A DNA stretch of 64,000 nucleotides from Salinisphaera hydrothermalis C41B8 (GTDB lineage Bacteria > Pseudomonadota > Gammaproteobacteria > Nevskiales > Salinisphaeraceae). Of this stretch, positions 53,979 through 59,260 are shown piece by piece. Where the stretch lies: contig NZ_APNK01000019.1 in the NCBI RefSeq assembly GCF_000732535.1, positions 1-64,000 of the forward strand. Direction: 5' to 3'. The first letter of the stretch is position 1. Each line of letters begins with the position of its first letter. The position numbers and the translations under genes are program-made. The notes beneath the pieces were generated by a model, which saw only the letters and a list, made by a program, of their open reading frames with translations, did no database searches and had not been told where the DNA came from.

Positions 53979-56102
53979 GTGAGTAAAGTAGAAGTCACCA
54001 GCCGGCAAACCTTCCAGTACGGTGAGCACAACGTCACCCTGGAAACCGGTGAAATCGCGCGCCAGGCAGACGGCGCGGTCATGGTCAGCATGGGCGACAC
54101 CGTGGTTCTCGTGACCGCGGTGGGCAAGAAGGAAGCCAAGCCCGACGCCAATTTCTTTCCGCTGACCGTCAATTATCAGGAACGGACCTACGCCGGCGGC
54201 AAGATTCCGGGCGGGTTCTTCAAGCGCGAAGGGCGCCCGGGCGAGAAGGAGACGCTGACCTGTCGTCTCATCGACCGGCCGATCCGTCCGCTGTTCCCGA
54301 AGGGCTTCTATAACGAAGTCCAGATCATCGCGACCGTGATGTCGGTCGATCCGGAAATCGATTCGGACATTCCGGCGATGATCGGTGCCTCGGCCGCGCT
54401 CGCACTGTCCGGCATGCCGTTCGACGGCCCGATCGGCGGCGCGCGCGTCGGCTACGCCAACGGCGAATACGTGTTGAATCCGAGCGCGACCCAGCTCAAG
54501 GACAGCGACCTCAACCTGGTCGTCGCCGGTACCTCCGACGCGGTGCTGATGGTCGAATCCGAAGCGAAGCAGCTGTCGGAAGAGATCATGCTGGGTGCCG
54601 TGTTGTTCGGCCATGAACAGCTGCAGGCGGCCATCAAGGCGATTTCGGCGCTGACCGCCGAAGCCGGCAAGCCGGCCTGGGACTGGCAGGCGCCGGCCAA
54701 GGACGAGTCGCTGGCTGAAGCCGTGGCGCGCGTTGCCTCCGACGACGTCACCGCCGCCTACCAGATCGCCGATAAGCAGGAGCGCCAGGCGCGCCTGGGC
54801 GAGATCAAGGATAAGGTGGTCGAGGAACTGGCCGCGGCCGAAGGCGAGGATGGCTATGCGTCCGAAGACGTCAAGGCCGCTCTGGGCGACCTCGAGAAGA
54901 AGACGGTACGTTCGCGCATCCTCGAAGGTCAGCCGCGTATTGACGGCCGCGACACCCGCACCGTGCGCGATCTGACGATCCGCACCGGCGTGCTGCCGCG
55001 GACTCACGGTTCCGCGCTGTTCACCCGTGGCGAGACGCAGGCGCTGGCGGTGGCCACGCTGGGTACCGGCCGCGATGCACAGCTGATCGACGCGGTGGAA
55101 GGCAAGTATGAAGATCCGTTCATGCTGCACTACAACTTTCCGCCGTACTGCGTCGGCGAGACCGGCTTCATGGGCAGCCCCAAGCGCCGCGAGATCGGTC
55201 ACGGCAAGCTGGCCAAGCGCGGCATCATGGGCGTGCTGCCGGACCTCGAAAACGAGTTCCCCTACGTCATGCGTGTGGTCTCGGAAGTCACCGAATCCAA
55301 CGGCTCGTCGTCGATGGCCTCGGTCTGCGGCACCAGTCTGGCACTGATGGACGCCGGTGTGCCGATCAAGGCGCCGGTGGCCGGCGTGGCCATGGGCCTG
55401 ATCAAGGAAGGCGACAAGTTCGCCGTGCTCACCGACATCCTGGGCGACGAGGATCACCTCGGCGACATGGACTTCAAGGTGGCGGGCTCCAAGAACGGCG
55501 TCACCGCGCTGCAGATGGACATCAAGATCGGCGGTATCACCCGCGAGATCATGGAAGTCGCGCTGGATCAGGCCAAGGAAGGCCGGATGCACATCCTCGG
55601 CGTGATGTCCGAGGCGATCGACGCCCCGCGCAAGGAAGTCTCCGAGTGGGCGCCGCGCATCTTCACGATCAAGATCGACTCCGAGAAGATCCGCGACGTC
55701 ATCGGCAAGGGCGGCGCCACCATCCGCTCGATCACCGAGGAAACCGGGGCGTCCATCGACATCGAGGACGACGGCACGATCCACGTGGCCGCAGTCGACA
55801 AGTCGGCGGCCGATCTCGCGATCAAACGGATCGAGGAGATCACCAAGGATATCGAAGCCGGTCAGATCTACGAGGGCAAGGTCGTTCGCATCGTCGACTT
55901 CGGCGCCTTCGTTAATCTGGCGCCGGGCCGTGATGGTCTGGTCCATATCTCGCAGATCGCCCAGCATCGGGTCGAGAACGTCTCGGACGAGCTGTCCGAA
56001 GGCGAGATGGTCAAGGTCAAGGTTCTGGAAGTCGACCGTCAGGGCCGTGTGCGCCTGTCGATGAAGGAACTGGCTGAACCCGAGGAAAGCGCCGAAGAGT
56101 AA
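53979..56102 (+). CDS. pnp: Polynucleotide phosphorylase
   Basis: 3'-5' phosphorolytic exoribonuclease and degradosome component. The 707-residue protein has two RNase PH domains (1-~220 and ~310-545) joined by an alpha domain, the second carrying [23 protein letters not shown], then a KH domain ([25 protein letters not shown]) and an S1 domain ([31 protein letters not shown]). The start is GTG 53979 preceded by CAGGAAGTCAGGA. Confidence 0.97.
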
Positions 56103-56138
56103 TTTCGCTTCGGCAGCGAGCCATAACGGCAACGCGAA

Positions 56139-56166
56139 GGGCGCCTCTCCGGAGGCGCCTTTTTTA
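56139..56166 (+). terminator. Terminator after pnp
   Basis: GGCGCCTC (56141-56148) and GAGGCGCC (56153-56160) form a stem followed by T5. It ends the rimP-pnp operon. Confidence 0.87.
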
Positions 56167-56847
56167 TGGCTCTTCGCATATTAGCGGGCCGATGCAAAAC
56201 CGGATCATGGTCTCGGCTGGATGGTTAGGTGGGCTGCGGTGCCACCGTTCACGGAATACGCTAAGCCCTAATGCGCCGCGTCTGTATTCCCGTCCCGTTG
56301 TGCGGCGACGGCGAGGCGTGGTGTCGGCGGGTGTCCGGCGCACGGCGCCGGTGCGTCCAGCCTGTCTGAGCATCGCCAAAGCGATGCGCCATTGTCATCG
56401 ACCAGGTGGGCGCATCCCGCCGGCACCACGCCTCGCCGTGAACCGGCGAAGCCAGCGCTGTGCCGGGTGCTCTTCTCTTGGTTACTTCTCTTGAGCAAGC
56501 AAGAGAAGTGACTCGCGCTGCAGCGCGAAACCAAAGGCCGGCGAAGACCCGCAGGTTAGACTGTTCGAGTGCGAGGTCGGAGGGGCTGACCCATTGCATG
56601 GCTTAGTCGTATCTACCCATGCCTGAACCCCCGGGACTCGCCGGAATCATGGCCCCACTAACCCGCGATGAACCTTTTTTTATGGGGTTCGCGTATTCAC
56701 AAGGCCATGGCGCCCTGTGAATCGAGACGCTTCAGGTATGGCGCCTGAAGAAATCCGCGAAGAACTTTTGATGCGCGCGGCCGCCGAATGAGCGGTTCAT
56801 GTTCAGGGCGAGAGCCCTGAAAACTCCGACGATGGGATCGTGACCAT
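56167..56847. other. Hairpin-rich spacer without recognisable gene
   Basis: About 680 bp. Inverted repeats include ACTTCTCTTG with CAAGAGAAGT (56484-56509), the palindrome CGCGCTGCAGCGCG (56514-56527), CTTCAGG with CCTGAAG (near 56730-56750) and TTCAGGG with CCCTGAA (near 56801-56821). Open frames on both strands are Arg/Pro-rich with no protein-like features. The TTCTCTTG...CAAGAGAA part followed by a CGAAACCAAAG-like end resembles intergenic repeat text common in GC-rich gammaproteobacteria. Confidence 0.55.
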
Positions 56848-56875
56848 AAAAAAAGCCCCCTTGGGTAAGGGGGCT
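56848..56875 (-). terminator. Terminator of the candidate small RNA (and of phaR)
   Basis: AGCCCCCTT and AAGGGGGCT pair over 9 bp around a 4-nt loop; on the minus strand seven T follow. Confidence 0.9.
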
Positions 56876-56936
56876 AAGTGCGAGAAAGGCCGTTAGGCCT
56901 TTCGGAGGAGATTCGAGGGTCGCCTTGGCGACCGAG
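56848..56936 (-). ncRNA. Candidate small RNA
   Basis: Minus strand. From a start near 56935 the RNA would form hairpin 1 (arms GGTCGC and GCGACC), a single-stranded CUCCUCC (56904-56910), hairpin 2 (GAAAGGCC/GGCCTTTC, 8 bp) and a terminator hairpin with a T-run (56848-56875). About 90 nt, no open frame. A sigma-70 promoter lies directly upstream. It is on the same strand as phaR and could instead be a 3' UTR product, but the separate promoter argues for its own gene. The CUCCUCC stretch is complementary to ribosome-binding sites. Family not recognised. Confidence 0.6.
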
Positions 56937-56941
56937 ACCTA

Positions 56942-56969
56942 AGTATAGTACGACTTTCGTATAAATCAA
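56942..56969 (-). promoter_or_regulatory. Promoter of the candidate small RNA
   Basis: On the minus strand, TTGATT (56964-56969), 16 bp, TATACT (56942-56947), in an AT-rich island between phaR and the hairpins. Confidence 0.6.
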
Positions 56970-56999
56970 GCAACGACGATCGGAAAATTTTTAGGGTTG

Positions 57000-57533
57000 T
57001 CAGTCCGATGAGCGAGCCTCGTGGCTATCGGGCGTGTCCGGGTCTTCGTCGGTCGTCTGTAACTCTTGAGGCGGGGATGCATCGCGTCGCGCCAGATTGG
57101 AAAGAAACTCGCGCCGCACACTTCGCCATATCGGCAACTGATCCTGCGACAGCTCACGTAGGGCGGCCAGCGGGGTGTTGGCGCCCAGTAAGCGGCGGAG
57201 GCGCCCTCGGAACTGTGACTGCTGTTCGTTGAAGAACTCCAGCGACAGTTCGAGATAGGAACTCATCGTGCTCTGCATCGAATCGCCGTAAAAACGGATG
57301 ATGTTGCGTAACACCTCGGTCCGAAAGATCGGGTTTCCGCCTTCTTCCTGCTCGCTGATCACCTGCAACAGGATGCTGCGTGTGATATCGCGGCCGCTGC
57401 GCTTATCGACGACCTTGAAGTCTTCGTTGGCGATCACGAGTTGGCGAATGTTTTCGAGGGTGATATAGCGGCTGACTTCGGTGTCGTACAGCCGGCGGTT
57501 CGGATATTTCTTGATGATCCGTTCGGAGGGCAT
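57000..57533 (-). CDS. phaR: Polyhydroxyalkanoate synthesis regulator PhaR
   Basis: Binds DNA and PHA granules to regulate phasin genes. The 177-residue protein has the PhaR N-terminal DNA-binding domain (RIIKKYPNRRLYDTEVSRYITLENIRQLV, residues 5-35) and the accumulation domain (DITRSILLQVISEQEEGGNPIFRTEVLRNIIRFYGDSMQ), then a charged tail. PHA synthase genes are not in the window. It faces pnp across the hairpin-rich spacer. Confidence 0.92.
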   Translation of the reverse strand: MPSERIIKKYPNRRLYDTEVSRYITLENIRQLVIANEDFKVVDKRSGRDITRSILLQVISEQEEGGNPIFRTEVLRNIIRFYGDSMQSTMSSYLELSLEFFNEQQSQFRGRLRRLLGANTPLAALRELSQDQLPIWRSVRREFLSNLARRDASPPQELQTTDEDPDTPDSHEARSSD

Positions 57534-57894
57534 CGGCGTCTCGATTACGGCGTAGCGCGAGCATTGACGTCAGTGTGCCAGACGCTTGGCCAAAGGCCGA
57601 TGATTCACGTTGGCGCAGTGTGCGCCTGCTGTGAACCCTGTCGCGGCATTTTTGAACGGCGGGACGATGTGATGGGAGTTCGAGCGAGCACGCCCGATCA
57701 TGCGTTATCGCGTTCAAGCGAAGTATGGCGTGTGTAAGGCAACAGCCCGCGCGTCATACGGGCTGTTGCGTTCGCTGCTCGGGGCAGGCTGGGGCCGCGA
57801 CCGTTTCCACCGCAACCGCCGCCGCAATCCGGCACGACGAAGCAAATACGACAGCGCCAGCCCGCAGCTCCGGCGACGAAGCCGCGGCCGGAAT
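57534..57894. other. Spacer between dksA and phaR
   Basis: 361 bp without a convincing gene. It contains an 11-bp perfect stem, GCAACAGCCCG (57739-57749) with CGGGCTGTTGC (57759-57769), downstream of dksA but without a T-run. The rest should hold the phaR promoter. Confidence 0.5.
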
Positions 57895-58338
57895 TCAGCG
57901 CCCGAGCTGGCGCTCCCGGATCTCGTCCAGGCTCTTGCAATCGACGCAGAGCGTCGCTGTCGGACGTGCTTCGAGACGGCGAATACCGATCTCCGTACCG
58001 CAAGTCTCGCAGAACCCGTATTCGTCACGATCGACGCGGGCAATCCCTTGATCGATCTTGCGAATGAGCTTGCGCTCACGATCGCGCGTGCGCAGTTCGA
58101 GGCTGAACTCCGACTCCTGGCTCGCGCGGTCGGTCGGATCCGGGAAGTTGGCCGCCTCATCCTTCATGTGATGCATGGTGCGGTCGACTTCCTCCATGAG
58201 CTCTTTTTTCCACTGCACGAGGATGCCGCGAAAGTGCTCGCGCTGCGCCTCGTTCATGTATTCCTCGTCCTCGTTCGGGACGTAGGGCGTAAACTCTTGA
58301 GGCGCGTCGAGTTTTGACGTGTTTTCCGTAGTCGCCAT
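57895..58338 (-). CDS. dksA: RNA polymerase-binding transcription factor DksA
   Basis: Works with ppGpp at the polymerase secondary channel to control rRNA and amino-acid promoters. 147 residues: a long coiled coil with the acidic tip DPTDRASQE (Asp67, Asp70, Ala72, equal to E. coli Asp71, Asp74, Ala76) and a four-Cys zinc finger (Cys110, Cys113, Cys131, Cys134). All key residues are present. The start is ATG 58338 (MATTENTSKL). Confidence 0.95.
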   Translation of the reverse strand: MATTENTSKLDAPQEFTPYVPNEDEEYMNEAQREHFRGILVQWKKELMEEVDRTMHHMKDEAANFPDPTDRASQESEFSLELRTRDRERKLIRKIDQGIARVDRDEYGFCETCGTEIGIRRLEARPTATLCVDCKSLDEIRERQLGR

Positions 58339-58486
58339 GGTGCTCTCGGGTCGACAAACAGCGCGTACCTTTAGCAAAAATGATGCCGCTGTGCAATCGA
58401 ATCTACGCGAGTTCGTGGGTTCGGGCGGGTTTCATGCCTCGACCTGCGCACTTGTTCGCTCGATAGCGGGCAGGTGTTCATACATA

Positions 58487-59260
58487 TCAACGACTGTCGT
58501 GGCCTGTTTTGACATCGATCAACGGATAATCGGTTTCCATATACAGCAATGTCGCGCCGATCACCGCAGCTGGCATCACGACGAGATTGGCCAGCGGAAG
58601 CGCCGTCGCCAACGTAACCACGCTACCAAACCCCAGGTGGCGCCATCCCCGCGCATATAGCCGCTGCATCTTGGCGTCGAACGGCAGCCCGCGGTTGGCC
58701 ATCGGTTGGTCCAGATATTCGAATGCCAGCATGAAGGCGCCGAATACGAACCACAGCGGGGCGATCGCCAGATTGGCGACCGGGATGAACAGAAGCACCA
58801 GACTCACGAGGCCGAGGAGCGCGGCGCGCGAAGCGTAATAGCGCAGCCGGCGCAGCTCGCCGATCAACCCGTCCCACATTTCGCCGGCGATGCTCATGCC
58901 GCTGTTTGGCTCATGACCGGTGTGCAGTTTTTCGACGCGCGCCGAGAGCATGCCGTTGAACGGGCTGGCAATCAGATTGGCGAGCAGCGTGAAGAAGTAA
59001 CAGAACGCCAGCGTGCTGATGATCATACCTAGCCACCAGAGCACGTCCTCGAGCCAGGCCAGCCATGTCGGCAGGCCCGCCAGCCAGGCGTTGAGCCAGT
59101 CGTTGAGTTGCCAGCCCAACAGTCCCATGAGCGCGACGATCAGAACAACGTTCACCAGCACCGGCAGAATTACGTAGCGGCGCAGCCCTGGCGCGGTAAG
59201 CAAGCCGAAGCCGCGGGCGAGATAGCTCGGGCCGATGATCAGTTCGCTGACGGGATTCAT
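58487..59260 (-). CDS. cysZ: Sulfate transporter CysZ
   Basis: A 257-residue inner-membrane protein of the CysZ/EI24 family that brings sulfate in for cysteine synthesis. It starts GPSYLARGFGLLTAPGLRRYVILPVLVN, has NLIASPFNGMLSARVE and a C-terminal FEYLDQPMANRGLPF, all typical, with about four to six hydrophobic segments. dksA lies 148 bp downstream on the same strand. Confidence 0.9.
   Translation of the reverse strand: MNPVSELIIGPSYLARGFGLLTAPGLRRYVILPVLVNVVLIVALMGLLGWQLNDWLNAWLAGLPTWLAWLEDVLWWLGMIISTLAFCYFFTLLANLIASPFNGMLSARVEKLHTGHEPNSGMSIAGEMWDGLIGELRRLRYYASRAALLGLVSLVLLFIPVANLAIAPLWFVFGAFMLAFEYLDQPMANRGLPFDAKMQRLYARGWRHLGFGSVVTLATALPLANLVVMPAAVIGATLLYMETDYPLIDVKTGHDSR

Follow-up and report, generated by a model that had tools for sequence, protein, structure and literature searches.

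The stretch of DNA analyzed here, hereafter the window, comprises 64,000 nucleotides of the genome of Salinisphaera hydrothermalis C41B8 (G000); in what follows, genus denotes Salinisphaera, order Nevskiales and class Gammaproteobacteria. On its minus strand, between phaR and the convergent pnp, lies a predicted small RNA (sRNA) gene, the parts of which are collected in Table 1. A first-pass annotation of the window had proposed, without stating the strand, a compact unit of about 90 nt with a TTGATT-N16-TATACT promoter, consecutive hairpins, a terminator and a single-stranded CUCCUCC between the first two hairpins, and each of these elements was recovered. The promoter (56969-56942) is the sole sigma70-like site found by a promoter scan of the region 56000-58500, but the match alone is not significant since shuffles of this region average 0.6 such sites versus the one found. 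The predicted fold, at -41.6 kcal/mol, is more stable than every one of 200 shuffles (mean -27.65; z -4.46). Within it, CUCCUCC is predicted to be 96-97% unpaired for RNA starts at 56937-56932 and 74% unpaired if the RNA starts immediately after the -10 box; in the folds of 12 genus sequences its mean unpaired fraction is 74-100%. The window RNA carries the conserved, single-stranded CU-rich stretch that characterizes anti-Shine-Dalgarno sRNAs.

Table 1. Features of the predicted sRNA locus and its neighbours, in window coordinates
Feature	Position	Strand	Basis
pnp, polynucleotide phosphorylase, convergent neighbour	53979..56102	+	TIGR03591, 1100.7 bits
Intrinsic terminator with U-run	56848..56875	-	scan (stem 56875-56854); 8/8 pairs changed on both sides
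Predicted sRNA, ~87 nt	56849..56935	-	sequence and fold; start inferred from -10 box, +/-3 nt
Unpaired linker UCGCACUU	56876..56883	-	UCGCAC invariant in genus; CGCAC in 65/71 order sequences
Hairpin 2, GAAAGGCC-UAAC-GGCCUUUC	56884..56903	-	covariation, 7/8 pairs changed on both sides (71 sequences)
Exposed CUCCUCC, complementary to GGAGGAG	56904..56910	-	invariant in 13 genus sequences; 70/71 aligned order sequences
Hairpin 1	56918..56933	-	sequence variable within genus; folds upstream of CUCCUCC in 12/12 genus sequences folded
Position of PhaR-type site in most relatives (GCACYGCAACA after -10 T)	56930..56941	-	absent in window
-10 box TATACT	56942..56947	-	promoter scan
Palindrome TACGAAAGTCGTA in promoter spacer	56949..56961	-	exact at sRNA promoter of G009, G010, G001 and G005 too
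-35 box TTGATT	56964..56969	-	promoter scan; TTGA[CT]T at equivalent place in 13 genus sequences
phaR, PHA synthesis repressor, upstream neighbour	57000..57533	-	TIGR01848, 157.3 bits, cut-off 109.45

Within the genus, blastn searches detect the sRNA in 13 of the 14 genomes, the exception being a genome that is 81% complete. Across these 13 sequences CUCCUCC, the stem of hairpin 2 and UCUCGCAC are invariant, and hairpin 1 varies. A covariance search in relatives, which the first-pass annotation had suggested, was conducted with a model spanning CUCCUCC through the terminator, hairpin 1 being considered in the genus sequences only. This model matches 81 of 85 order genomes at E<=1 and 79 of 85 at E<=3e-4, the latter with 127 copies, one to five per genome, which occur in tandem in 11 of the 79 genomes. 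In an alignment of 71 order sequences, 96% of cells pair and 15 of the 16 base pairs show changes on both sides; double changes fill 108 cells, where shuffles give 22.3 and slid controls no more than 22, a count that leans toward structure because the alignment was fitted to it. CUCCUCC is retained in 70 of the 71 sequences, all of them found with a model that itself contains CUCCUCC. Alignment A2 omits L011, which is identical there to L010. At several loci (L068, L063, L070, L073, L075, L078 and L093) two or three sibling copies with differing promoters lie near phaR and pnp.

Matches also occur beyond the order. Among 369 genomes drawn from the class, a broader model matches 17 at E<=0.01, of which four are from the order; six of the remaining 13 matches are strong (E<1e-8), and two loci outside the order (L241 and L243) adjoin phaR, L241 with a PhaR-type site (see below). 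A pattern scan of named genomes returned 63 stretches, largely from Salinisphaera, Solimonas, Nevskia, Sinimarinibacterium, Hydrocarboniphaga and other members of the group, with six (in Flavobacteriales, Lachnospiraceae, Planktothrix and three archaea) that resemble chance. No match to the sRNA was obtained in a search of the plasmid collection. Comparison across relatives lends good support to an sRNA gene in its own right, as proposed earlier, and to its conservation together with the exposed anti-ribosome-binding-site stretch. The same annotation had recognised no known family, and indeed no match is obtained at Rfam's own thresholds; judged from its sequence, the window RNA belongs to an RNA family that is absent from Rfam, and we regard this family as new but its functional kind as one already known. 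A literature search, conducted mostly without subscription papers, found no sRNA reports for the genera of the order. The RNA described here hence provides a conserved regulatory RNA for an order without a described sRNA in the literature searched, and one whose regulator and mechanism are testable.

The genomic neighbourhood of the sRNA, which the first-pass annotation had described as downstream of phaR, is itself conserved. PhaR is listed in 75 of the 79 genomes with strong matches, and in 67 of these 75 no more than 1.6 kb separates phaR from a copy of the sRNA; phaR-sRNA-pnp is a common arrangement. Among the 127 copies found at E<=3e-4, the promoters of 78 were read. The sequence TGC[AG]NYGCANCA occurs upstream in 61 of the 78 copies, where letter shuffles would give 0.0, and in one of the 78 stretches taken downstream; for its core YGCRNYGCR the figures are 65 upstream, 10 downstream and 3.2 from shuffles. 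These counts are not independent, because the site was noticed before the test and the copies are related. In 60 of the 61 site-bearing promoters the site is joined to a TATA-type -10 box as TATACTGCACYGCA, and TATACTGCACYGCAACA, as in a Solimonas promoter, can be viewed as a putative PhaR operator sequence. The core is the motif reported for Sinorhizobium meliloti PhaR (AniA), which binds the mmgR promoter and represses the MmgR sRNA (PMC12542648). Apart from the genus genomes described below, 11 copies in the rest of the order, some of them adjoining phaR, lack the strict site. Elsewhere in the genomes, exact TGCAMYGCAACA outnumbers its reversed control in 10 of 13, the exceptions being G000, G009 and G010. 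In G014 a further PhaR-type site stands ahead of a gene whose Phasin_2 match (E 1.4e-4) falls short of the Pfam cut-off; a thiolase gene follows such a site in G004, and an acyl-CoA thioesterase gene in G082. Several sites have no evident gene behind them; upstream of phasin-family genes (TIGR01841), for which gene starts were rough, none was found in 30 loci.

The promoter in the window departs from this pattern, the 160 nt upstream containing no YGCRNYGCR core. Within the genus, the PhaR-type site is absent at the promoters of G000, G009, G012, G001, G005 and G010, and present in seven other genomes. The first three of these six retain a PhaR match despite their site-less promoters; G001, G005 and G010 have none, and have kept the sRNA. 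Exact TACGAAAGTCGTA stands at the sRNA promoter in all of the six except G012, and thus in the three relatives that have lost phaR. Near copies of this palindrome are present in all seven genomes searched, and the contexts of five share no evident pattern. Since the site is absent from the window promoter, PhaR control, with its putative binding, is a claim that applies to the order and does not extend to the species of the window.

PhaC_N matches are found in 45 of the 85 order genomes and in all 14 of the genus, including those without PhaR (in G006 only under the cut-off). Of the 40 order genomes lacking such a match, 37 retain a strong sRNA match, which indicates that the sRNA-PhaR module is independent of a recognised PHA synthase; judged by these genomes, the storage polymer alone cannot explain the retention of the sRNA. 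The storage regulator itself often outlives the synthase, with PhaR listed in 39 of these 40 genomes. Such natural losses of phaR, its site and the PHA synthase offer ready comparisons.

These data bear on how the RNA relates to described families. The best Rfam match is alphaproteobacterial MmgR (RF00519; 24.2 bits, E 0.0095 for 601 bases searched), and a PhaR-type promoter site is common to mmgR and most of the order, so that homology with MmgR merits consideration. We nonetheless regard it as unlikely: the score lies under the 41-bit threshold, as does that of L034 (26.2 bits), and the window lacks the PhaR promoter site, the core of which is present in 65 of the 78 copies. Further, the CU-rich stretch of MmgR aligns with the linker that follows hairpin 2, leaving CUCCUCC in the window RNA without a counterpart there, and the PhaR site is placed between the -35 and -10 boxes in mmgR (PMC8401924), but after the -10 box in the sRNA promoters of the order. 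The two thus resemble each other in the link to PhaR, which represses and binds at the MmgR promoter and has a putative site at most of the order's copies, and differ in sequence and layout, the window RNA having an extra hairpin and CUCCUCC and its promoter no PhaR site. Membership in RF02278, the betaproteobacterial "toxic" double-hairpin sRNAs (ncS03, ncS05, ncS27 and ncS62, with the relative S17), likewise appears improbable. The succession of CUCCUCC, hairpin and terminator is shared, as is the presence of several copies per genome in the Burkholderia ncS RNAs and Bordetella S17 (PMC5688073, PMC10987360, PMC11722255), but the scores (21.2 bits in the window, 25.9 in L064) compare with a threshold of 50 bits. 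Of 15 order loci, L064 alone matches RF02278 at E<=1, no family's threshold is reached among the Rfam matches listed for these loci, and no RF02278 match at E<=0.001 was found in the window's genome or in G001, G008 and G078. The RF02278-like RNAs read also have another stem and a second CU-rich stretch in the loop of hairpin 1 (the loci read show CTCCTCCA(C/T)CCTCC), in contrast to the UAAC loop of hairpin 2 in the window RNA, which lacks a second such stretch. Moreover, the strict site (TGCANYGCA) is absent from the 29 upstream stretches read of the 30 RF02278-like loci (none was obtained for L262; L251 and L252, which do not belong to RF02278, are not counted).

Two other explanations would deny the sRNA an independent identity altogether. 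One holds that it is the phaR 3' untranslated region with its terminator, released by processing; read-through from phaR is indeed likely, as the scan reported no terminator between phaR and the sRNA. However, -35 and -10 boxes of its own are present in all 13 genus sequences, copies located away from phaR, such as L048 and L056, possess a promoter and a site themselves, and the sRNA is kept in the three genomes without phaR, all of which renders this origin very unlikely. The other, that a terminator, an accidental promoter and a CU-rich stretch have come together by chance, could appeal to the promoter match, which by itself is within chance, but it is contradicted by the covariation and by a conservation that lifts the feature far above chance, leaving it a negligible probability.

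RF02278-like RNAs are themselves frequent across the class, mostly below the threshold, with matches in 102 of the 369 genomes at E<=0.001, two of them over the threshold. These widespread sub-threshold sRNAs (CTCCTCCATCCTCC..., L253-L282 around 1503) often have TATTAGA-like promoter stretches. On visual inspection, looser PhaR-like sites are apparent at L254, L265 and L270, so that part of this family may also have a link to PhaR. Overexpression of ncS27 slows growth, silencing of its CU-rich part raises growth (PMC5688073), and the RNA is thought to act on the ribosome-binding sites of carbon-metabolism mRNAs (PMC5688073, PMC10987360); S17 lowers several genes, its overexpression not being similarly toxic in E. 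coli (PMC11722255). The sibling NmsR sRNAs of Neisseria resemble the order's RNA in directing unpaired CU-rich stretches at the ribosome-binding sites of metabolic genes, and in being tandem siblings (PMC5688073), but the Rfam scans gave no match to such a family and the order's sRNA is tandem in only a small minority of genomes. MmgR of S. meliloti likewise has an exposed CU-rich stretch, and it acts post-transcriptionally in storage metabolism (PMC12542648, PMC8401924).

The reading that we favour, and consider quite probable, is that of an order-wide anti-Shine-Dalgarno sRNA of the PhaR regulon, which would lower the translation of carbon-metabolism mRNAs. It builds on conservation, structure, neighbourhood and the presence or absence of sites, all read from the DNA; for transcription, pairing, Hfq, PhaR binding, the direction of control and targets, we infer the following course. 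The sRNA would be transcribed separately and act in trans, its exposed CUCCUCC pairing with purine-rich ribosome-binding sites and thereby dampening translation of a group of mRNAs, most of which probably serve carbon uptake and catabolism. Such pairing is suggested because CUCCUCC is kept and the studied RNAs share this feature; the retained, exposed CUCCUCC together with the U-tailed terminator argues for Shine-Dalgarno pairing by analogy with these RNAs. Hfq is probably involved, if the precedent of MmgR carries over. By the same precedent, free PhaR would close the promoter via the site fused to the -10 box, and the promoter would open when PhaR is drawn off by storage granules or by another signal, so that carbon excess would put a brake on continued carbon breakdown. 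In the species of the window, which has lost the PhaR-type site, another regulator, perhaps at TACGAAAGTCGTA, presumably took over. CU-rich anti-ribosome-binding-site motifs are also found in the CcsR or cuckoo RNAs of Alphaproteobacteria.

More tentatively, at somewhat less than even confidence, PhaR coupled to an anti-Shine-Dalgarno sRNA could be a recurrent carbon-status switch, present in Alphaproteobacteria as MmgR and in this gammaproteobacterial order either independently or by ancient descent, which outlived PHA synthase in many order genomes, multiplied into siblings and was rewired in the window's lineage to a new regulator at TACGAAAGTCGTA. The data suggest that PhaR control of anti-ribosome-binding-site sRNAs is a wider theme than MmgR alone; a literature search on PhaR with sRNAs, mostly without subscription papers, had MmgR as the sole case recognised among the matches listed.

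Target prediction, also proposed in the first-pass annotation, gave weak results overall, with one recurrent lead. The search covered about 0.45 Mb (0.11 Mb from the window's genome) and 434 crude gene starts. Among these, 15 of the 19 phaC and phasin starts sought were found, and their pairing was not favoured (between 0.06 and 0.99 of the genes pair as well); as shared targets phaC and the phasins were rejected, their starts being spread across the whole range of pairing energies, and the phasin starts in particular show no favoured pairing; lowered phasin production is a feature of MmgR. The best match of the search, 9 nt, falls on the ribosome-binding site of ppsA, encoding phosphoenolpyruvate synthase (CGGAGGAGA, window:8396-8411, minus strand), and this candidate was likewise set aside, the match being present in G000 and G009 and absent in the three other relatives read. 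The ribosome-binding site of fadD contains GAGGAG in 7 of 10 orthologs versus 19 of 202 ORFs, which makes fadD the best recurrent candidate, though a lead only, given that these orthologs share ancestry and that gene calling was crude. In all 10 Salinisphaera sampled (L283, L286, L288, L290, L292, L294, L296, L298, L300 and L302), a single 20-kb stretch contains both fadD and phaC.

The sole exact TGCACTGCAACA in the window's genome precedes a 180-aa ORF on contig C17 (L285:227-769, minus strand), for which no Pfam or NCBIfam family was found above the cut-off. Its product would have a basic, Lys/Ala/Arg-rich tail, from which derives an impression of likeness to phasins, and its ribosome-binding site is predicted to pair with the sRNA at -11.6 kcal/mol, near the best 5%.
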